A DNA stretch of 63,086 bases, taken from positions 1 to 63,086 of the forward strand of contig JAKISP010000020.1 in the NCBI GenBank assembly GCA_021648525.1, read 5' to 3'. Source of the DNA: Gammaproteobacteria bacterium. GTDB taxonomy: Bacteria > Pseudomonadota > Gammaproteobacteria > SZUA-140. Every line of letters starts with the position of its first letter. The stretch's first letter is position 1. Shown here one piece after another: positions 51,672 through 63,086 of the stretch. The notes beneath the pieces are model-generated. The model made no database searches, had not been told where the DNA came from, and saw only the letters and a program-made list of their open reading frames with translations. The translations under genes were made by a program, and so were the position numbers.

Positions 51672-52199
51672 ATGAAAAATAAAAAATTGTTCGGCACATT
51701 ATTCGCGGCAGTGTTTACTTGTACGATAGCAGTAGCTCATGCAGATGATGGCCTCAAGGTAACCGCCGAAGCGGCAGAAAATGAGCATGGCATCGCGCTT
51801 AGCATGACGGTCTCTGAAGAGGTTGAAGAGGTCAATATGGTGGGCAATAAAATTATCCGCCTGGTGGATGCTGACAGTATTGTTCCCGGTGATCGCCTGG
51901 TCTATGTCACCACTGTGAAAAACCGTAGTCAGCAATCGGCAGAGAATGTCGCAATCGTGAATCCTGTGCCAGAGCATACCACCTATCTTGAAGGTAGCGC
52001 TCAGGGTGATAGTGCTACGGTCACTTTTTCTGTCGATGGTGCAAAGAATTTTGATAGCGAAAAAAACCTGACTGTTACAGATGAAAACGGTGATAGGCGC
52101 GCTGCCACCACAACAGATTACACCCATATTCGCTGGGTATTGAACTCGCTGCCTGCCAAAGCGGAGGCCGATGTGCTATTTCGAGCGCGCCTGAATTAA
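51672..52199 (+). CDS. Small secreted DUF11-like protein
   Basis: 175 residues with a clear signal peptide (MKNKKLFGTLFAAVFTCTIA, ending AHADDG at about 24). The rest is one beta-sandwich of the DUF11 kind: IVPGDRLVYVTTVKNRS (about 71-87), ENVAIVNPVPEHTTYLEG, TFSVDGAKNF and a closing ADVLFRARLN strand. A TTDYTHIRWVLNSLPAKA block (about 147-164) is shared with similar small proteins that I recall next to larger DUF11 proteins in other proteobacteria. Function unknown. It may be a secreted subunit or cap of the assembly encoded downstream. Confidence 0.75.
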   Translation: MKNKKLFGTLFAAVFTCTIAVAHADDGLKVTAEAAENEHGIALSMTVSEEVEEVNMVGNKIIRLVDADSIVPGDRLVYVTTVKNRSQQSAENVAIVNPVPEHTTYLEGSAQGDSATVTFSVDGAKNFDSEKNLTVTDENGDRRAATTTDYTHIRWVLNSLPAKAEADVLFRARLN

Positions 52200-52440
52200 T
52201 AGTCAGTAAATATAAGTTTTTTTGATTGCAGGATTACAAAAATGAATTCAATTACATCCATGTCTAAACCTTCCCAATGGGATTTTCTTCTCTCCAGAAT
52301 CCTCGCGCAGATACGAGGGTTGCCACCCTGAAAATCACCATATTTAAGTGTATTAAATAGCTCAATGTAAAAATTATTTTTTAGGCAAACAGGAAAGACG
52401 CCAAACAGACTAAGGAAGGTCGCAAGAAAGGAGACATAAT

Positions 52441-53598
52441 ATGTCTGATTTTAAAATTCTCAGAAAACTGGTCGGAATCCCGACAACTGTTTTATTACTC
52501 ACCATGATGGCCCCAAATGCTATGGCCGTAGGTACCGCATCAAACACCTCTGTTACTAACTTTGCAACGGTGAACTATGATGTGGCATCTGTTGGGCAGC
52601 CCGCTATCAATAGTGCCTTGGTTGCTTTTGTGGTTGATACCCGAGTTGATTTAACCGTATCTACCGATGATCTTGCCGAAGTAGCAGTGACCCCAGGTTC
52701 GAATGATAATGTCATGACCTTTACTGTCACGAATACCGGTAATGCACCTCATGACTTTAGCCTTTCATCGCTAGCACTTGTGGGTGGTACAGGTGCATTT
52801 GGTGGTACGGATAATATCAATGCTAACGATGTGCAGATCTTTGTTGAGACCGCAGCAAGTGGCAGTGCTGGATATCAGCTAACGGACGTTGATACACACA
52901 TCAATGCCCTGGCGGCGGATGCCAGTATTAACGTCTATATTGTTTCAGACTTCAGTACTGGTTACTCCGATGGCGATATCGCTTCATACTATCTTAATGC
53001 CGAAGCGCGTATTGACAATGGTGGTAGCACGCTAGGTGGTGCACTGGTTGAAACGGTTGGAGGGGATACCGAGGGTTCGGTCGATATTGTCTTTGCTGAT
53101 GATGCAGGTATCAATGATGCAGCAGGCGATGCAACCGACTCTAGTCAGGATGATTATCAGGTTGTTACGGCAACACTGACCATTGGTAAGACTTCTTCGG
53201 TAATATCGGATCCAGTGAATAACACAACGGATCCGAAGCGTATCCCTGGTGCCGTCATCGAGTATGAGATTACTGTCTCAAATGGTGTGAGTGGTGCAAC
53301 GGCAACTAGTGTGGCTATCACCGATAGTCTTAATACTGAAATAACTGAAGGTGATATTGCATTTCAGACCACATATAATGTGACCGCACTTCAGGGTATT
53401 TCGATTAGACATCCTGACTCTACAATCCCCGCAGATTTTTATGAATATACCAATGCTGGTGGTGCTGAAGCTGCGGGCCGTGGAGCGGTGGTTGCCGACT
53501 GGAATGTTACTGATACAGATAATGTTGTAACGGTAACAGGCATTGTGCTGGACGGCGGTGAGTCGGCGACAATTCGCTTTAGAGTAACCATCCAGTAA
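52441..53598 (+). CDS. Medium secreted DUF11-like repeat protein
   Basis: 385 residues, with AAGGAG 9 bases before the ATG. A signal peptide ends around NAMAVGT (about 29). The opening GTASNTSVTNFATVNYDV matches the N-terminus of the giant next protein (GTSISNTASTSYIV), so the two share an N-terminal module. Two beta-sandwich repeats follow: VTPGSNDNVMTFTVTNTG (about 82-99) and a second ending GESATIRFRVTIQ at the C-terminus. It has no cysteine and is acidic, with many Asp, Thr and Val. No anchor is visible. It might be a pilin-like or matrix subunit handled by the barrel protein. Function unknown. Confidence 0.72.
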   Translation: MSDFKILRKLVGIPTTVLLLTMMAPNAMAVGTASNTSVTNFATVNYDVASVGQPAINSALVAFVVDTRVDLTVSTDDLAEVAVTPGSNDNVMTFTVTNTGNAPHDFSLSSLALVGGTGAFGGTDNINANDVQIFVETAASGSAGYQLTDVDTHINALAADASINVYIVSDFSTGYSDGDIASYYLNAEARIDNGGSTLGGALVETVGGDTEGSVDIVFADDAGINDAAGDATDSSQDDYQVVTATLTIGKTSSVISDPVNNTTDPKRIPGAVIEYEITVSNGVSGATATSVAITDSLNTEITEGDIAFQTTYNVTALQGISIRHPDSTIPADFYEYTNAGGAEAAGRGAVVADWNVTDTDNVVTVTGIVLDGGESATIRFRVTIQ

Positions 53599-53608
53599 TC
53601 GTCACACC

Positions 53609-56600
53609 GTGGTCTACTGTTTCACAGATGCTGAACGTGCTTTTTGCGCTGGTCGAAAGACCAGCGCTTTGGCCGTTCTGCGCCTGTGGGCGGTATTTTT
53701 TATCACGTTACTCATGGCGGTTGTTTTAACAACAAAAATAGCCCATGCAATCCCTGTTGGAACCAGTATCAGCAACACCGCATCAACCAGTTATATCGTG
53801 AGCGGGGTTTCTGGTTTTACAGAAAATTCAAATACAGAACAATTTTTAGTTGAAGATAGCGGCATCCCTGACTCGGCTACGTTAACCGTCACCGAAGCAT
53901 CAGGACTTTATTTTATAGGCGGTGATGTGGTCACGATGACAGTCGACGTCACTAATAGTGGTGGTAATACCCAGGCGGCTAGTGAGATTAGAATGAGTGT
54001 ACCAGCCGGCTCAGTCTTAACACTTGATGGTAACAGTGCTACTAGCGAGGTCACTAATGGCGCGACCACAACATATACCTTTAATGTCGCGGATATTTCG
54101 GTAGGAGATAGTGCTACTTATACCGCGTTGTTGACCCTAGCAACCAATATTGACACGGCAAATGACCAGATAAATACAGCGTATTTTACCAATGGTGCAA
54201 CGATAAATACGAATGTAATCACACTTAATCTGCGTAATCGAACCTTATCAGAATTGAGCTTGATGCGCCTCTCACTGGACAATACCATCACCCCACAAGT
54301 GGTAAACCTCACCGAATATGATGATGGTATGGGTGATTATGTACCATTACCAGTTCCCAATATGCCATATACCACCATAGCAGTCACCAGTACACCGATG
54401 CGACTGGAAGATGCTGCTGCCTTTAGTCACCTGCAGTCTGTTTTTGTACGAGTCGATGACTTTGATCGCAATATTAACAGGCTCGCTGCAGAGACTGTGA
54501 CAGTCGATGTTAGTGTGGATGGAAATGCTGATATGGAGCGCTATCGTCTGCTTGAAACAGACATTGATAGCGGTGTGTTTACTGGTTATATCACGATCTC
54601 ACTAAGTACACAGGTGGCTTACGATGGTCAGTTAAGTATTAATACCAATAGTGAAATAACCGTGACTTATCGTGACCTTGCTGACACCTCGGATATTGCT
54701 ATGAAAGAAATTATTGTTGATCCATATGGCACACTATATAACAGTGCAACAGGTGTTGCGCTTAATGGCTACACCGTACACATGGTTGATATGAATACCG
54801 GTTTGCCTGCCGCAGTAGTCGGTGATGATGGCATTAGCGCTTATCCTGCGACAGTTGTCACCGGTGGTACTGTGGTTGATGCCAGCGGCACAGTCTACAA
54901 CTTTGATAACGGTAGCTACCGCTTTCCATTTGCCCCCGTGGGTAATTATCAGCTAATTGTCGAACCGCCTGCCAATGTTGCATTTCGCTGGCCCTCAACA
55001 AAAACAGATGAAGCCCTCGCGGTGACGCCCAATGGTCCTTTTGTAGTGACGCTGGGTTCGCGTGGCGAAACTTTTCCGCTACAACCTGGGCCGCCGTTGC
55101 ACATCGATATTCCAGTCGACCCTGTCGATACACCTCTCTATGTCACGCGTAGTGCAAACAAGGCAGAGGTGGCTGTTGGTGATTTTATTCAGTTTCGAGT
55201 TGAGATTGAGAACCTGGCAGCTAGTGTTATGAATGATCTAACACTGCATGATGAGTTGCCTCACGGATTCCGCATTCAGGAAAATTCAATCTATATAGAT
55301 GGGGTTTATGCTCCGATGCCGATTATCGCTAGCAATGGTTCAACATTGCGCTTTGATCTTGGTGGAATGGCGCCAGGCGCCTCAACTACCATTGAGTATG
55401 TGGCTGCTGTGGGTGCGGTAAATAGAAACATTGCGACAAGTTCCAGTTATGCCGAATCGGGTGAGAATTTCGCCTTATCAAATACTGCGCTGCTCGAGAC
55501 CATTATTATTGAAGAGCTCATGCGTAGTCGTACGATTTTGATGGGGCAGGTGGTTATTGATGGCGATGGTGAAAGGCGGGGCCTTAGCGGTGCGCGTATT
55601 TTTATGGAAGATGGCCGTTATGCCATTACTGATGAACGTGGTATGTATCATTTTGATGACGTTAAACCCGGCACTCATATATTACAGCTGGATACGGGTG
55701 GTCTTCCTTCAAATTATGAAGCGGTTATGAAAGAAAGTAATACCCGTTTTGCAGGCAACGCATCCTCTCAGTTTGTTGATGTACAGGGTGGTAGCCTGTG
55801 GCGGTCTGATTTTTATGTGGCAGAAAAGGCACGGACTGGTGGCTATGCCTCAGTACAGATAGAGAACATGCCACAGGAGAAACCGGAAGAGATTACTTAC
55901 CGGATCAAGCTGGAAGCAGAGAAAGTGGCTCTGGATAAAGTACGTCTGACTGTGGTCCTTCCTGATGGTGCTGCGTATAAACCGGGTAGTAGCCTGCTAG
56001 GAGTTGAAGTGGTTGATGATCCACAGGTGATGGACAACATGTTGATCTATCGCCTCGGCAATAGCAGTGATGCATGGCATGAATCTCTGCAATATACAGT
56101 GACGCTAGCCAATGAAAATAATAATGATGAGCTGATCTCAAAAGTATCGATGGTGTTTAATGTGCCCTCTAAAAAAGGGCAGCGTGTACCGCTGGCGACT
56201 CATTCACTGCTGACCAGAGCGGGTAATTCTGGGCAGGTAACGAGTGGTATTAAACAGCGAGTGACTACTTTTGGTGAAAAACCGGGTAGTGATTTTGTGG
56301 TTGTTGATGATACCCGAGAAGAAGGGTTACCTGAGTATGACTGGGAGTGGCTTGGTCGTAGTAATGCTAATGGTGAATTCAAGTGGTTAACGCCAGCTAA
56401 AGGTGCGCTGCCTGCGATTCCTTCAACGAGTGTTGTGATCAAGCATGATCAGTTCCACCGTATTGAATTGTCATTGAATGGCAAGCCGGTACCCGCACCG
56501 AATTATGAGGGTTCAATGAAAAATAAAAATGGTGCTTCACTCAGTATCTGGAGAGGTGTGGATCTGGTGGTGGGTCGCAATTTGTTCGAAGCGACGGTAA

Positions 56601-59455
56601 TAGATTTGAGTGACCAGGTGCTTCATCGTTTCACTCGCATTGCCCATTTTTCGGCTCCACCAGTGCGAGCAGAATTGGTGGAAGAGCAGTCAATGTTGAT
56701 AGCCGATGGCTCCACCAACCCGGTAATTGCGGTACGACTTCTTGATCGTGATGGTTATCCTGCACGTTATGATGTGATTGGTCGTTTTGAAATAAATCCA
56801 GCCTACAAAGTACAGCGTGAAGATGATTTTGCAGACCTTAATATACCGGGGGCCTCTTTAACACGCCATGAGTACCGTGTATTGCACGATGGTATTGTCA
56901 AAATAAAATTAGAACCCACCACCGAGAGTGGCGATGTCGAACTTAACTTTCTATTGGCTAATAATATCATCGAAGAGGTAAACGCGCCTCTCCGGGCAGA
57001 AGTGGGTGAGTGGTTATTGGTAGGTCTGGCTGAGGGTTCGGTAGGGTATAATAAATTGAGTGACAATATTGAATCGTTATCGGGAATTGCCGCTGAAGAA
57101 GCTCTTTATAGTGATGGTCGGGTTGCCTTTTATGGTAAAGGGCGGATATTGGGCAGATGGATTCTGACGTTGGCTTACGACAGTGACAAAGAAAAGCCAT
57201 TGCAGGATGGTGACCCTGGGTTGTTTCAACAGATCGATCCCGGCAAATACTACACCATTTATGGCGATACTGCGTATAACGGTTTTGATGCACGCAGTAG
57301 TGAAAAGCTCTATTTGAAACTGGAGCGTGATGCGTTTTATTTCCTCTTTGGTGACTATCAAACCAATCTCGATAATGTTGACCTCGCTCAATATAACCGC
57401 ACCCTGACCGGTATCAAGTCACGTTATCACGCCGGTGGTATCGATGTGGTGGTCTTTGCCAGCGAATCGAATCAGGCCTTTGTAAAAGATGAAATTCGTG
57501 GTGAAAGTCGTAGCGGTCCTTATTATCTTTCGCGCAATAAGATTGCGATGAATAGTGAAGTGGTGACGATTGAAGTGCGCGATCGCTTTCGTAGTGAAAT
57601 CATTGTTGATCGCCGCGAAATGGCACGTCATAGTGAGTATGACATCGACTACCGTGCCGGTACGATCACCTTTAGAGAGAGTGTGTATAGCATTGATGCT
57701 GGGCTTAACCCGGTTTTTATCGTCGTTAAGTACGAATCGTTTGACCAGGGTGATGATACCTTGACGATGGGTGGTCATGCAGAGGTTGAAATGTCTGAGA
57801 ATACCTCGGTTGGCATCACCAGGATTGATGAAGGGCGAGTAGGTGGTGATGCCGAGATGGATGGCATCAATGTGCGCCATAACTTTGGTGATAATGTTCA
57901 GCTTAAGGTAGAAGTAGCACGTAGTCTTGATGAACGTGCGAGTGGCGACCTGGTTAAAGGAAACGCTTATATCGCAGAGCTTGCGGGCCGTAACGAGCGC
58001 CTTGATACCAGGGGCTATGTACGTGAACAGGAGGCAGGTTTTGGTCTGGGACAGTCTACAGGTTCTGAAAATGGCAGTCGTAAGATGGGTGTCGATGCAA
58101 GTCTGCGAGTGACCGACCGTCTACGTCTCAAAGCACAGCTCTATCGCCAGGAGACCCTGGATAGCGCAGCGACACGTGACCTTGTCGAGACCAACGGGAG
58201 TTATCAATTCGACAGCTCAAGTCTGCGTCTGGGCGCACGTTCTGTTCGTGACGAACGTGGCAATGGGGATAAAGAGATCTCTGACCAGATCACCGCCGGT
58301 GCCAGTAAACAACTGTGGGACGGACGCCTGGTGGCACGCATCGACCGTGAACAGAACATCAGCAGTGGCAAGATCAACAGCAGTGATTTCCCTGACAGGA
58401 CTCGTGTGGGAGTGGATTACCGCCTGACACAGAGCAGCGACCTGTTTGTCGAGCATGAGCTGACCGATGGTGATCTGCGCGATACCCGAAGCACCTTGAT
58501 GGGGATTAAATCCACCCCATGGGAGGGTGGAAAAATCTATACTGGCCTGAAACAGAGTGCTGATGCCAAACGCACCACCACCAGCGCCAATGTCGCACTA
58601 CAACAAAAATGGTTGCTCAACGAAAACTGGAGCCTTGATGTGGGTGCAGAAGAGTCACGCACGATGAGTGATACATCGGTCACGCCACTGAATGCCAACG
58701 TCCCGCTTGCCAGTGGTGGTAGTGATTTTAGCGCGGCCTCCGTCGGGTTGACCTATGCGCCAGGTGACTGGCTCTGGACCGGGCGTCTGGAGACGCGTGA
58801 TGGTAGTACTGATGATTCCTGGGGGGTTGCAACCGCTGTGCAGACAACGCCTAATCAGGCGCTTTCTACCCTGCTGAGTCTGCAATATAGCGAGAGCGAG
58901 CGTACCACCGGTACACGCAGTAGCAAAACCGCCATTCGTCTGGGAACGGCCTACCGCCCCGAAAATAGCCGCTGGATCTTGCTCGATAAACTGGACCTGA
59001 AACGGGACGAGGCAAGTGGTGGTGAGTTTGATACGGAATCATGGCGCATCATCAATAACTTCAACGCCAACTTTAAACAGAATGAACTATGGCAGCACAG
59101 CCTGCAGTACGGCATGAAGACGGTTAATGAAGTGATCAATAGCCGAAACTATAAGGCCTTTATTGATTTGATGGGCGTTGAGAGTCGTTACAACATCAAT
59201 GCTAAGTGGGATGCTGGGGTTCATGTCAATGTGCTGAGTCACTGGGATCTTAAACAACGTGATTACAACAGCGGCTTCTCAGTGGGCCACACTCTGGCGA
59301 AAAATGTATGGGTAAGTGTCGGTTACAATTTTGTTGGTTTCACCGATAAAGATTTTTCAGCGTCCCGTTATACCAGTAAGGGTGTGTATCTGAAATTCCG
59401 TGTGAAATTTGACCAGAATAGTGCCAAAGAGGCAGTGCAATGGCTAAAGCAATGA
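53609..59455 (+). CDS. Giant DUF11/Ig-module protein with C-terminal outer-membrane beta-barrel
   Basis: 1948 residues. Signal segment about 24-47 (FFITLLMAVVLTTKIAHA). Modules in order: an N-terminal GTSISNTASTSY module; DUF11-like sandwich (about 85-200); DUF11 repeat (about 511-620, VTRSANKAEVAVGDFIQFRV); SdrD-B/carboxypeptidase-regulatory-like turn (about 641-705, GERRGLSGARIFMEDGRYAI); further sandwiches (about 760-1080); then from about 1150 a long series of amphipathic strands (FYGKGRILGRWILTLAYDSD, YLKLERDAFYFLFGDYQTNL, and so on) to the C-terminus, typical of an outer-membrane barrel. The GTG start has no good ribosome site and lies 10 bases after the previous stop, so translation may be coupled or start elsewhere. 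Likely a surface assembly or secretion platform. Confidence 0.78.
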   Translation: MVYCFTDAERAFCAGRKTSALAVLRLWAVFFITLLMAVVLTTKIAHAIPVGTSISNTASTSYIVSGVSGFTENSNTEQFLVEDSGIPDSATLTVTEASGLYFIGGDVVTMTVDVTNSGGNTQAASEIRMSVPAGSVLTLDGNSATSEVTNGATTTYTFNVADISVGDSATYTALLTLATNIDTANDQINTAYFTNGATINTNVITLNLRNRTLSELSLMRLSLDNTITPQVVNLTEYDDGMGDYVPLPVPNMPYTTIAVTSTPMRLEDAAAFSHLQSVFVRVDDFDRNINRLAAETVTVDVSVDGNADMERYRLLETDIDSGVFTGYITISLSTQVAYDGQLSINTNSEITVTYRDLADTSDIAMKEIIVDPYGTLYNSATGVALNGYTVHMVDMNTGLPAAVVGDDGISAYPATVVTGGTVVDASGTVYNFDNGSYRFPFAPVGNYQLIVEPPANVAFRWPSTKTDEALAVTPNGPFVVTLGSRGETFPLQPGPPLHIDIPVDPVDTPLYVTRSANKAEVAVGDFIQFRVEIENLAASVMNDLTLHDELPHGFRIQENSIYIDGVYAPMPIIASNGSTLRFDLGGMAPGASTTIEYVAAVGAVNRNIATSSSYAESGENFALSNTALLETIIIEELMRSRTILMGQVVIDGDGERRGLSGARIFMEDGRYAITDERGMYHFDDVKPGTHILQLDTGGLPSNYEAVMKESNTRFAGNASSQFVDVQGGSLWRSDFYVAEKARTGGYASVQIENMPQEKPEEITYRIKLEAEKVALDKVRLTVVLPDGAAYKPGSSLLGVEVVDDPQVMDNMLIYRLGNSSDAWHESLQYTVTLANENNNDELISKVSMVFNVPSKKGQRVPLATHSLLTRAGNSGQVTSGIKQRVTTFGEKPGSDFVVVDDTREEGLPEYDWEWLGRSNANGEFKWLTPAKGALPAIPSTSVVIKHDQFHRIELSLNGKPVPAPNYEGSMKNKNGASLSIWRGVDLVVGRNLFEATVIDLSDQVLHRFTRIAHFSAPPVRAELVEEQSMLIADGSTNPVIAVRLLDRDGYPARYDVIGRFEINPAYKVQREDDFADLNIPGASLTRHEYRVLHDGIVKIKLEPTTESGDVELNFLLANNIIEEVNAPLRAEVGEWLLVGLAEGSVGYNKLSDNIESLSGIAAEEALYSDGRVAFYGKGRILGRWILTLAYDSDKEKPLQDGDPGLFQQIDPGKYYTIYGDTAYNGFDARSSEKLYLKLERDAFYFLFGDYQTNLDNVDLAQYNRTLTGIKSRYHAGGIDVVVFASESNQAFVKDEIRGESRSGPYYLSRNKIAMNSEVVTIEVRDRFRSEIIVDRREMARHSEYDIDYRAGTITFRESVYSIDAGLNPVFIVVKYESFDQGDDTLTMGGHAEVEMSENTSVGITRIDEGRVGGDAEMDGINVRHNFGDNVQLKVEVARSLDERASGDLVKGNAYIAELAGRNERLDTRGYVREQEAGFGLGQSTGSENGSRKMGVDASLRVTDRLRLKAQLYRQETLDSAATRDLVETNGSYQFDSSSLRLGARSVRDERGNGDKEISDQITAGASKQLWDGRLVARIDREQNISSGKINSSDFPDRTRVGVDYRLTQSSDLFVEHELTDGDLRDTRSTLMGIKSTPWEGGKIYTGLKQSADAKRTTTSANVALQQKWLLNENWSLDVGAEESRTMSDTSVTPLNANVPLASGGSDFSAASVGLTYAPGDWLWTGRLETRDGSTDDSWGVATAVQTTPNQALSTLLSLQYSESERTTGTRSSKTAIRLGTAYRPENSRWILLDKLDLKRDEASGGEFDTESWRIINNFNANFKQNELWQHSLQYGMKTVNEVINSRNYKAFIDLMGVESRYNINAKWDAGVHVNVLSHWDLKQRDYNSGFSVGHTLAKNVWVSVGYNFVGFTDKDFSASRYTSKGVYLKFRVKFDQNSAKEAVQWLKQ

Positions 59456-59463
59456 GCCGCTTA

Positions 59464-59493
59464 GTAGAGACAGAGAGTAGAGACAGAGAGTAG
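59464..59493 (+). repeat. 13-bp tandem repeat in the ribosome-binding region
   Basis: GTAGAGACAGAGA occurs twice in exact tandem (59464-59476 and 59477-59489), with a third partial GTAG after it, between the barrel gene's stop and the next ATG. Copy-number change would alter spacing upstream of that gene. Confidence 0.85.
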
Positions 59494-59509
59494 GAACAGG
59501 TATAATGTT

Positions 59510-62500
59510 ATGAGGGATAAAAGCACAAAAATTTGGGGAGTTATTAACAAATATCAGCCATTGGTGGTGTTCGGCAGCGGCTTGTGGTTATCTATGTTAC
59601 TGATGTTGCTATTGCCAGCCTCTGCCCAGGCAGCGATCACCTATGTGCAGCAGAATGGTACTGTGACGAAGAATCTTGCCTTTCCTTATGACACCACGAC
59701 AGTGACCATTTCTAACGCCCCCACTATTGGTAACACCATCATTGTATCAACGGGCATCAATGTCAGCAGCGGCAGTTCTGTTGCTTGTAGTGATGGTGTT
59801 AATACCTACTCTATCGATAGATCACTCACCACATTCCCTGCTTTTCCTTATAGAGAGGTGATCGTCTGTTCAGCAAAAATAGCAACGGTGCCTGGGTCGA
59901 TTACTGTCACGCACGATTATGCGAATGAAAGTGCTATTGATGTGCATGAATTTTCTGGTATTGCCGATGCTCCAAGGGTAGATAGAAGCAATGTTAACAG
60001 CGGGAGTGGCACAACCCCAACCAGTAATAGCACGAGCAGCTCCAGCGAATCGAATGTACTGGTATTTGGTGCGCTTGAGGTCAACGGGCCGTCAAGTGAC
60101 AGTTTTATTGCGGATAGCAATTTTCCTGGTGGGCCCTTTAGAACCAGTATTAATAATGTCACCATCAATACCCAATACTGGATTACCACGGGTGCTGCGA
60201 GTACATACGCCTATGCACCAACGCTTGGCACCAGCCGTCTCTGGGTCGGTGCGGTTGTTACCTATAAAGCCGCTGCGGTTGCCGGCATCAATATCGTTGG
60301 CACCTGTCAACAACAAGATGAGACGACTAACTGTGCCGATGGTGGTACCGTTCGAATAGCCATTAATGGCGACTTGCAGGGGCAGAGCACGGCCACTTCG
60401 GCGGGTACCTGGACCATCGCTGGTGTTGCTGCCCCAGCGAGTGGCGATGTGATTACCGTGTTTATCGATGGGGTAGTAGATATTCGCGAAGCGGTGGCGG
60501 TTACCAGGTATGACGGTGTGGGTGATATTACTGGGGTTGAACTTATTGAAGAGCACTTAACTATTGGTAGCGACGATAATCAAATCGTGAGCAACGCCGA
60601 TCTTAGCCAATACGATAACTCTGTCAGCATCGATGAAGATGTGTTTCATGAAGTCAATGGTTCGAATAACTTGACGGTTGATACTACCGGGGCATTGACT
60701 GCTGAGGAACTCTATATCAAAAGCGGCAACACCTTTCAGCCTGGTGCAGGTAACGTCACCACGCATGATCTGGAGATTAACGGTACGTTTATCGCGGGTA
60801 GTAGTAATATCACCCTGGATGGAAGCTGGGATAACAATGCCGTTTTTACTGCCGGAGCCTCTACCGTGAATTTTACCTCAGGATCTGGCACCGAAACGAT
60901 CGATTCAACCACTGCCACTGGCCCTGATTTTTACAATATTCACTTTAATGACGCGGGTGGGTCGGGAACCTTTCAACTCGAATCGGCCTTGAATGTGAGT
61001 AATAACCTCACCATCACCGACGGTATTCTGGATGCTAACAATGGATCAAGCTATGCGATTAATGTGGGCAATGATTTTTTGCAGCCAGGTGGGCGCGTTC
61101 TCGCTCGCTCATCAACGCTTACCGTAGCCCGTCACTTTACCGCTGATGGCAGTGAATCCGATACCGGTTATAACAGTGCAACTCTGGTGATGAGTGGCGC
61201 CGGGATTTTAACCTATAATAATGTAGCTTCATATTGGGCGAATGGTTTCCGTGATGTCACAGTAGGGCAGAGCGGAAGTACGACGACCCTGGCTGATACC
61301 CAGTTTTGTGTGTTAAACGTGCTAACGGTGGGGTCTGGAACCCTGCTTGGTAGCGGCCCTTTATCCGACCTCTATTTAAGAGGTGTACCGAACCCTTTAT
61401 CATTTAATGTTAATTCAATAATTAATATTAGCACATTGTATTTTCATAATAATATCTCTCAGAATATACCACCTCTGGTTAACGGTTATGATAGTGATAT
61501 CAATCTCAGTCGCAACAATGCCAGTGTTACCCAGACTGGAGCGATTACCATTAATTCAGGTAGCCATTTACTCCTGGATGGCGATACCTTTGCGGATCGC
61601 ACTGTTACCTATATCACCAACGGTTTTAATCTAAATGTAGCCGGTAACATTCAGATTGGTGAGGGTGATGATACCGGCCTCAAAACATTGAATGGTACCA
61701 ACAGCAACATCACTGTCGGAGGGGATTTCGAGATTCGCGATGTTGGCACTGGCACTCAACAGGCGCTCTTTATTGCAAGCAATTCGACCGTTACATTAAA
61801 TGGTACGGCAGATCAGGTCATCACCTCAAGCGGCAGCAGTTTCAATCACCTCACGATCAATAATACCGGTACCGTGGGGAATGATGATGTCATCATCGCC
61901 GATGCACTGGATATCAACGGTGATCTTACTGTCACCAATGGTCAGTTGGACCTGGAGAGCAATAACCCCGCAGTGAACACGGCTGGCAACGTCACGATTC
62001 AAACGAATGGGGCTGTCTGGGTGGGGGCACGCACTGCGGACTGGACTTTTGATGGCACCTCACTCCTGAGTGATAGTTCTAGTGGTGCTGCGCAGGATCT
62101 ACAGGATGTGGTGGTCGATGGTACTAGTCTGACTCTCGCCAGTAATACTAGAGTTGAAACCATGAGCGTGACGACGGGCACACTTAATCTTGGTGCTGCG
62201 GGTTATGTGTTAGCGATTGATGGTACCGGTACACCGCTGTCGAGTTTAGCCACTTTCGTTGCCGGTACATCAACGGTGAACTATACCGGCTCAGGCAGTG
62301 CAACCAACGTTGCCACCCTGCCTTATAGCAGCCTGCAGTTTGCGCCAACCGCCGCAACCACATACTCGCTCACTGGGCATCTAACTGGCGGCAATGCCAT
62401 GACGGGTCACTTAACCGTGGGTGACAATGCCACGCTGGAGACCACGGCGATCAATAATTACAACATCACGATGTCAGGTAACTATGACCAGTCATCGACG

Positions 62501-63086
62501 ACCAGCTTGGTGGAAGCTAACTCATCAACGATTACCGTGGGGGGGGATTTTACCGCTGATGGTAGTGTATCCGAGAACGGCTATAACAGCGCTGTGCTGG
62601 TGATGGATGGGGTCGGGCTCCTAACCTATAATAACGTCTCAGCACCCTGGGATAATGGTTTCAGTGGCCTGACAGTAGGCCTGGATGGAAACACTACGAC
62701 CATGGCCAACCTCTGGCTCTGTGTATTAGACGTGTTAACGGTAGGATCTGGAACTCTGGTTGGAAGCGGTACCTCATCCGATATCTTTTTGAAAGGTGAA
62801 CCGTATCCTTTATCGTTTGATGCTGGTTCAACCGTTAATATAGACGCATTGAACTTTCATGATAACTTGACTCAGAATATACCACCGCTGGTTAATGGCT
62901 ATGATAGTGATATCTATCTCACCCGTACCAATGCCAATGTTGTCCAGACTGGTGCGATCACCATTAATGCAGGCAATGATTTAATCCTCAATGGTGATAA
63001 CTTTGTGAATCGTGCGGTTACCTATAACACCAATGGTTTCGATTTAAACGTAGCAGGGAATATTCAGATTGGTGCCGGTGATGATA
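59510..63086 (+). CDS. Giant repetitive beta-rich surface protein (runs off the right edge)
   Basis: The frame is open from the ATG at 59510 to the window end, 1192 codons with no stop. A signal peptide ends LLPASAQAA (cleavage after about 41). Residues about 42-245 look like the jelly-roll-type domain often found at the start of bacterial surface proteins (NTIIVSTGINVSSGSSVACS, IDVHEFSGIADAPRVDRS). After a short linker with two Cys, beta-rich repeats follow (ITLDGSWDNNAVFTAGASTV, LNVSNNLTITDGILDANNGS), as in filamentous or beta-helical adhesins. A 471-residue higher-order repeat starts at about residue 543. AGG stands about 10 bases before the ATG. Role as adhesin or sheath is inferred. Confidence 0.75.
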   Translation, partial: MRDKSTKIWGVINKYQPLVVFGSGLWLSMLLMLLLPASAQAAITYVQQNGTVTKNLAFPYDTTTVTISNAPTIGNTIIVSTGINVSSGSSVACSDGVNTYSIDRSLTTFPAFPYREVIVCSAKIATVPGSITVTHDYANESAIDVHEFSGIADAPRVDRSNVNSGSGTTPTSNSTSSSSESNVLVFGALEVNGPSSDSFIADSNFPGGPFRTSINNVTINTQYWITTGAASTYAYAPTLGTSRLWVGAVVTYKAAAVAGINIVGTCQQQDETTNCADGGTVRIAINGDLQGQSTATSAGTWTIAGVAAPASGDVITVFIDGVVDIREAVAVTRYDGVGDITGVELIEEHLTIGSDDNQIVSNADLSQYDNSVSIDEDVFHEVNGSNNLTVDTTGALTAEELYIKSGNTFQPGAGNVTTHDLEINGTFIAGSSNITLDGSWDNNAVFTAGASTVNFTSGSGTETIDSTTATGPDFYNIHFNDAGGSGTFQLESALNVSNNLTITDGILDANNGSSYAINVGNDFLQPGGRVLARSSTLTVARHFTADGSESDTGYNSATLVMSGAGILTYNNVASYWANGFRDVTVGQSGSTTTLADTQFCVLNVLTVGSGTLLGSGPLSDLYLRGVPNPLSFNVNSIINISTLYFHNNISQNIPPLVNGYDSDINLSRNNASVTQTGAITINSGSHLLLDGDTFADRTVTYITNGFNLNVAGNIQIGEGDDTGLKTLNGTNSNITVGGDFEIRDVGTGTQQALFIASNSTVTLNGTADQVITSSGSSFNHLTINNTGTVGNDDVIIADALDINGDLTVTNGQLDLESNNPAVNTAGNVTIQTNGAVWVGARTADWTFDGTSLLSDSSSGAAQDLQDVVVDGTSLTLASNTRVETMSVTTGTLNLGAAGYVLAIDGTGTPLSSLATFVAGTSTVNYTGSGSATNVATLPYSSLQFAPTAATTYSLTGHLTGGNAMTGHLTVGDNATLETTAINNYNITMSGNYDQSSTTSLVEANSSTITVGGDFTADGSVSENGYNSAVLVMDGVGLLTYNNVSAPWDNGFSGLTVGLDGNTTTMANLWLCVLDVLTVGSGTLVGSGTSSDIFLKGEPYPLSFDAGSTVNIDALNFHDNLTQNIPPLVNGYDSDIYLTRTNANVVQTGAITINAGNDLILNGDNFVNRAVTYNTNGFDLNVAGNIQIGAGDD
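61136..63086 (+). repeat. Long tandem repeat (1413-bp period) inside the giant surface gene
   Basis: The segment from TTTACCGCTGATGG at 61136 recurs from 62549. Within each copy, YNSA-LVM, LTYNNV, LTVGSGTL, QNIPPLVNGYDSDI and NVAGNIQIG are conserved in the same order. The second copy is still running at the window end. A run of eight G (62539-62546) lies just before the second copy, in frame. Confidence 0.85.

Follow-up and report, generated by a model that had tools for sequence, protein, structure and literature searches.

Apparently split CLIPPER (DUF11) domains in a conserved operon and a candidate surface fibre based on an outer-membrane barrel

The DUF11 domain was described, in the initial annotation of the DNA studied here, as a beta-sandwich of unknown function, a description now partly overtaken: its structure has been solved, and the domain was renamed CLIPPER in 2025 (PMC12617251). 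In the crystal structure Lys715 forms an isopeptide bond, with Asp748 as helper, to Asn806 in the last hairpin, and the bond is absent from some DUF11 domains (PMC12617251). Fibrillar adhesins of the type of B9T28_05395 from Acinetobacter silvestris combine a CLIPPER stalk and its Lys/Asp/Asn triad with OmpA-like anchoring, each domain being complete in one chain (PMC12617251). The archaeal threads (Saci_0406) are head-to-tail donor-strand chains; the isopeptide bond proposed between their subunits runs from an N-terminal Asp to an Asn two subunits away, and a neighbouring gene whose product has no acceptor has been proposed as a cap (PMC9715654).

The gene cluster analysed here resembles the CLIPPER adhesins in stalk domain, triad and OmpA-like anchoring, but unlike them it appears to divide both the domain and the triad between chains, and its anchor would be a large barrel. 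A fibre or adhesin system with the barrel protein, P3, as its base is the best reading of the cluster. The case is now carried by the apparent split of the CLIPPER domain, the divided Lys/Asp/Asn triad and the logic of donors and acceptors, which are new relative to the initial annotation.

Gene layout and spread of the cluster

The window, which is one whole contig of 63,086 bases, contains four open reading frames on the plus strand that begin with signal-peptide-like segments and encode 175, 385, 1,948 and at least 1,192 residues, just as the initial annotation had stated; we refer to them as P1 to P4. P1 (51672..52199) is a secreted protein with a single CLIPPER/DUF11 domain. P2 (52441..53598), also secreted, has a donor hairpin at its N-terminus and an acceptor domain at its C-terminus, and P3 (53609..59455, with a GTG start), the presumed base, runs from a donor hairpin through beta-sandwich domains and an internal DUF11 to a predicted outer-membrane barrel. 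P4 (59510..63086) is secreted and adhesin-like and, the window being a whole contig, is truncated by the assembly at the contig end. The signal-peptide-like start is long in both P3 and P4, at about 41-47 residues. The close spacing noted for the four genes applies to P2-P3 (10 nt) and P3-P4 (54 nt) and not to P1-P2 (241 nt), and the structured leader that had been seen before P1 is not borne out, with a fold stability z of -1.64 and 13 of 200 shuffles equally stable; no Rfam family was matched in that region.

To call the four genes a DUF11 cluster is correct for some of them: Pfam DUF11 (PF01345, cut-off 24.6 bits) is exceeded by P1 (30.1 bits) and P3 (50.3 bits), and not by P2 or the available part of P4. 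P2 scores 17.8 bits with the NCBIfam model TIGR01451, below the cut-off of 24, and is tied to CLIPPER/DUF11 by profile comparison only. The available part of P4, at least 1,192 residues, matched no family; a complete relative that is 48% identical over 822 residues has an acceptor domain at its end. P4 also contains a direct repeat of 300 nt (61103-61402 and 62516-62815, 73% identical, 1,413 nt apart), which points to a duplicated module. For the middle domain of P2 (residues 66-243, 52636-53169) the best solved match is the uncharacterised Thermus protein TTHA1873 (7wrk), at a Z of 9.1 and 3.2 Å over 125 residues; this is weak. The P2 model has a pLDDT of 65, and none of the fold matches obtained with it exceeds a Z of 9.1, near the usual noise level.

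The initial annotation suggested that a small DUF11 protein, a medium one and a large barrel protein recur together in other proteobacteria, and it set conservation of gene order beyond close relatives as a test. Both are borne out: of the distinct neighbourhoods that include 3.5 kb or more of sequence upstream of P3, all 38 have genes for P1 and P2 immediately before the P3 gene. These loci share descent and are not 38 independent events, and the order recurs across several phyla. Carriers of the trio, among them the cultured Desulfatibacillum alkenivorans, belong to the Alpha-, Gamma- and "Delta"-proteobacteria and the Zixibacteria, and a single scan with P3 found 19 relatives in the same groups (Gammaproteobacteria, "Deltaproteobacteria", Alphaproteobacteria, Zixibacteria). 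When whole genomes were searched with a profile of the P3 barrel, hits scoring from about 900 bits upwards appeared in some 22 of the 370 gammaproteobacterial genomes, and in a similar proportion of a phylum-wide sample. The cluster is present in 3 of the 10 genomes of the window's own genus and is thus patchy in distribution. An additional P2-like gene (P2') occurs in most loci, a large adhesin-like gene lies upstream or downstream in many, as P4 does here, and two loci from Alphaproteobacteria have P1 encoded on the opposite strand. Judged by gene order, conservation of P1-P2-P3 as an operon is nearly certain. The cluster is a widespread, undescribed bacterial gene set; in the open-licence PMC papers covered, no account of either the operon or a split CLIPPER domain was found.

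Several plasmids carry related sets. On the pTHN plasmid of Novosphingobium sp. THN1, a cultured isolate, the genes are P2', P1, P2 and P3 (locus L140); the plasmid is typed as conjugative, and its database entry shows P3 broken into several frames. Plasmid p4 of Acinetobacter haemolyticus w12 (L143) has in a row P1, a fragmented P2 region, a P3 of 2,008 residues whose N-terminus is donor-like, an OmpA protein as a gene of its own and a tip-like gene of 978 residues. A diverged set lies on plasmid MP1 of Deinococcus radiodurans R1 (DR_RS15635 to DR_RS15655; L142), where two proteins have donor-like mature N-termini (GTEITNQAQATF and GTVIQNQASAQF) and a protein of 965 residues matches the P3 barrel profile at 2.8e-18.

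Truncated acceptor domains and N-terminal donor hairpins

In complete DUF11 domains, as an alignment of domains from outside the cluster shows, strand F is followed by a hairpin with the pattern G-x-L-T-N-x-A-x-V and a second segment, N-N-x-A. In the cluster proteins (P1, P2, P2' and the tips) strand F is itself the C-terminal end in 111 of 112 cases, by a pattern composed after the sequences had been inspected; outside the cluster, four of four proteins with a C-terminal DUF11 include the last hairpin and stop behind it. One could envision the missing hairpin as an artefact of domain boundaries, the hairpin being part of the following domain, but the CLIPPER structure excludes this because Asn806 of the hairpin is bonded to Lys715 of the preceding strands. 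The C-terminal domains were at first considered as possible sorting signals like those of the type 9 secretion system (T9SS), an interpretation abandoned after the donor match had emerged.

The acceptor of P2 (residues 246-385, 53176..53595) is a CLIPPER domain minus the last hairpin, with Lys250 at 53188-53190 and Asp295 at 53323-53325. Across the acceptors of P2, P2' and the tips the Lys is found in 78 of 78 and the Asp in 77 of 78, and the strand bearing the Asn is missing, so the isopeptide triad does not lie within one domain; the Asn sits instead in the N-terminal donors of P3 and the P2-type proteins. The P1 domain (about 51858-52196) likewise stops at strand F and is without the isopeptide Lys and Asp; among P1 relatives the Asp site is occupied by Asn in 27 of 34, and the Lys is not fixed. 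By comparison, the internal DUF11 of P3 (55136..55486) is unsplit and has Arg514 (Lys in relatives), Asp548 and Asn625, the Lys/Asp/Asn triad being present in most relatives.

The donors lie near the N-termini of P2, P2' and P3, at roughly residues 9-12 of the mature protein, and read G-T-x-x-x-N-x-A-T-x-x-Y, after which a second strand comes. The initial annotation had seen this segment in P2 and P3 as a GT-x-SNT module; it is real and conserved, and it means more than was seen at the time. In P2 the hairpin comprises residues 30-68 (52528..52644; donor Asn40 at 52558-52560) and in P3 residues 48-85 (53750..53863; donor Asn56 at 53774-53776), the donor Asn falling at about mature residue 12 in P2, 11 in P2' and 9 in P3 as numbered from heuristic cleavage sites. 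Aligned profile to profile, the acceptor alone covers columns 1-84 of the 125 of the complete DUF11 with a score of 68.7. With the P3 donor joined to it the score rises to 80.6 and the alignment crosses the junction to column 118, so that the Asn of the donor coincides with that of CLIPPER; the P2 and P2' donors give 78.7 and 79.8. Control values were lower throughout: at most 71.8 for 30 column-permuted donors, at most 72.2 for 21 other offsets in the same proteins, and 68.9 and 72.2 when the N-termini of tips and of P1 were used as donors. The P1 domain moves from 49.5 to 62.0 or 60.5 with donors and to 49.0 with the offset control. Against single N-termini, a short HMM built from the terminal hairpin of CLIPPER was too weak for significance, its best local match falling mostly on the donor segment, and joined single sequences scored weakly by the DUF11 HMM, for which reason profile-profile alignment was used. 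We think there is little doubt that, as a fact of sequence, the CLIPPER domain is split.

Two ways of reading these halves would not require a covalent chain. P2 and P2' hold both halves, and the C-terminal domain of P2 might be closed by its own N-terminal hairpin, leaving separate secreted proteins rather than a chain; however, a donor alone is present in P3, and an acceptor alone in P1 and in P4-type and other tip genes, so that these cannot close on themselves, and with the operon strictly conserved as well we consider self-completion quite improbable. Joining of the donor strand to an acceptor in trans is, by the distribution of the two halves, the likely arrangement. Such joints could still be non-covalent, with strand complementation alone holding the subunits and Lys, Asp and Asn serving packing or hydrogen bonding. 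The fold alone may be able to bind donors, as P1 has the truncated domain but not the Lys/Asp pair, and the bond is missing in some DUF11 domains (PMC12617251); yet the Lys and Asp are near-absolute in 78 acceptors that otherwise differ almost everywhere, and purely non-covalent joints are in our estimation unlikely. Because the acceptor keeps Lys and Asp and the donor brings Asn, the joints may well be covalent, a claim to which we give about an even chance.

P3 as candidate outer-membrane base

The barrel that had been read from the end of P3 (57125..59404, with a conserved plug-like stretch near 57509-57733) is supported by structure prediction, whose failure to produce a barrel had been named as a possible refutation. 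An AlphaFold2 model of residues 870-1948, made with 17 relatives, contains at least 32 successive strands, at moderate confidence (pLDDT 70, pTM 0.46). The best solved matches found by VIA-align are FimD and other ushers, including PapC; residues 262-798 of the model superimpose on FimD 134-655 with a Z of 18.6 and 5.8 Å over 355 residues, as compared to a Z of 12-15 for most unrelated barrels and 16.6, but at 19 Å, for SlpA. Homology to ushers by sequence was considered and rejected: hhalign against seven K-12 ushers gave a probability of 0.1, and the usher family (PF00577) has no Pfam match in P3 and none at E 1e-30 in its own genome. The usher likeness of P3 is thus a resemblance and not membership. 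Against solved structures, the P3 profile matched only OmpA tails, Ig domains of sugar hydrolases and, weakly, invasin; the P1 profile gave nothing convincing and the P2 profile no match.

The barrel start and the plug-like motif recur in alphaproteobacterial plasmid proteins (H20-H35) annotated as 'TonB-dependent receptor' or 'hypothetical', which suggests a broader barrel family. The window's own genome encodes a P3 paralogue of 2,350 residues (G000:C51, 2906-9958, minus strand; L012), which stands alone without the trio; its N-terminus is beta-helix-like, and fused to this are DUF11, an OmpA-like segment that is degenerate, and a related barrel.

SlpA of Deinococcus and OmcB of Chlamydia connect the outer membrane with peptidoglycan, and the P3 cluster might likewise form a periplasmic envelope scaffold with no export at all. 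Many P3 relatives have an OmpA-like peptidoglycan-binding domain between the barrel and a CarboxypepD_reg/SdrD_B-like segment (55553..55732 in P3), which places that part in the periplasm and would allow the N-terminal half of P3 to stay there too, and all of the proteins bear ordinary secretion signals. Against this stand the large, adhesin-like partners such as P4, the usher-like fold of the P3 model and the length of certain relatives. One open reading frame of at least 11,758 residues (L126-L127; G116:C2, about 428719-463995), from a genome in which the trio is present as well, contains 48 DUF11/CLIPPER domains, an OmpA-like segment recognised by eye and a P3-family barrel at its end. Stalks of 48 CLIPPER domains exceed the length of the periplasm, so the part before the OmpA/Ig region may exit via the barrel; such barrel-fused stalks argue for surface exposure without proving it. 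We regard the periplasmic scaffold as rather improbable. For a surface fibre with P3 as base, the chances appear distinctly favourable, and we infer, as the initial annotation did, that the P3 barrel displays or assembles the other proteins. Export through P3's own barrel is a more tentative proposal, suggested by the model and somewhat short of an even chance.

Proposed assembly and its relation to described systems

We propose, as a reading that on balance is probable, that the cluster encodes a surface fibre formed by head-to-tail donor-strand complementation between split CLIPPER domains, with P3 as base. Every subunit except P3 would end in a CLIPPER domain without its last beta-hairpin, the acceptor, and the P2-like proteins and P3 would supply the missing hairpin as N-terminal donor. 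P3, a donor without an acceptor, would then be the base in the outer membrane; P2 and its paralogues, which have both halves, the shaft or linkers; and P4 and the large upstream genes, with acceptors only, the tips, presumably adhesive. The simplest order would be from tip to P2' and P2 and on to P3. At each joint the Lys and Asp of one subunit and the Asn of the next would be placed to form an isopeptide bond with no sortase. P1, an acceptor minus the chemistry, probably caps donors reversibly; binding without locking would fit a cap, a terminator or an assembly factor, which is a guess. The chain, or the N-terminal half of P3, would probably be exported via the wide P3 barrel and held by the region next to it, where many relatives have the OmpA-like domain. 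No dedicated chaperone was identified, and there was no PapD-like Pfam match among P1-P4.

The broadest claim, that this is a new Gram-negative surface fibre, made without sortase or a classical chaperone-usher pathway, in which a naturally split isopeptide domain joins the subunits and locks them covalently, and a giant outer-membrane barrel lacking detectable sequence kinship with ushers anchors and exports them, is one that we hold at a little under an even chance. If true, Gram-negative biology would gain a donor-strand fibre that is covalent and needs no sortase, a set of 'DUF11 domain-containing' genes found side by side in several phyla would acquire a function, and split isopeptide pairs would be available from a natural source.

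Of the described systems, chaperone-usher pili (FimA-FimH with FimD; PapC) share the most with the cluster: at the level of sequence and profile, an N-terminal donor strand and a C-terminal Ig-like domain minus its last strand; tip subunits with an acceptor only; and an outer-membrane barrel, FimD and PapC being top fold matches of the P3 model. They differ in that the cluster has no usher homologue and no PapD-like protein among P1-P4, its subunits consist of CLIPPER domains that carry an isopeptide triad, and the base itself bears a donor; the tests made place the operon product outside the chaperone-usher family. The archaeal threads are likewise head-to-tail donor-strand chains with proposed inter-subunit isopeptide bonds; they have no outer membrane or barrel and belong to a different fold family and domain of life. 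SprA, the type 9 secretion translocon, is also a very large barrel with cargo that ends in beta-sandwich domains; Foldseek lists it for P3 at weak TM-scores of 0.12-0.22, and P3 has no SprA Pfam match. Unlike the subunits of sortase pili, those of the cluster have no C-terminal LPXTG-type signal with a transmembrane tail, 111 of 112 ending in a beta-strand. Finally, SpyTag/SpyCatcher is an isopeptide domain (CnaB2) divided into peptide and catcher by engineering, and the cluster would present a natural split of another, CnaA-like, fold.
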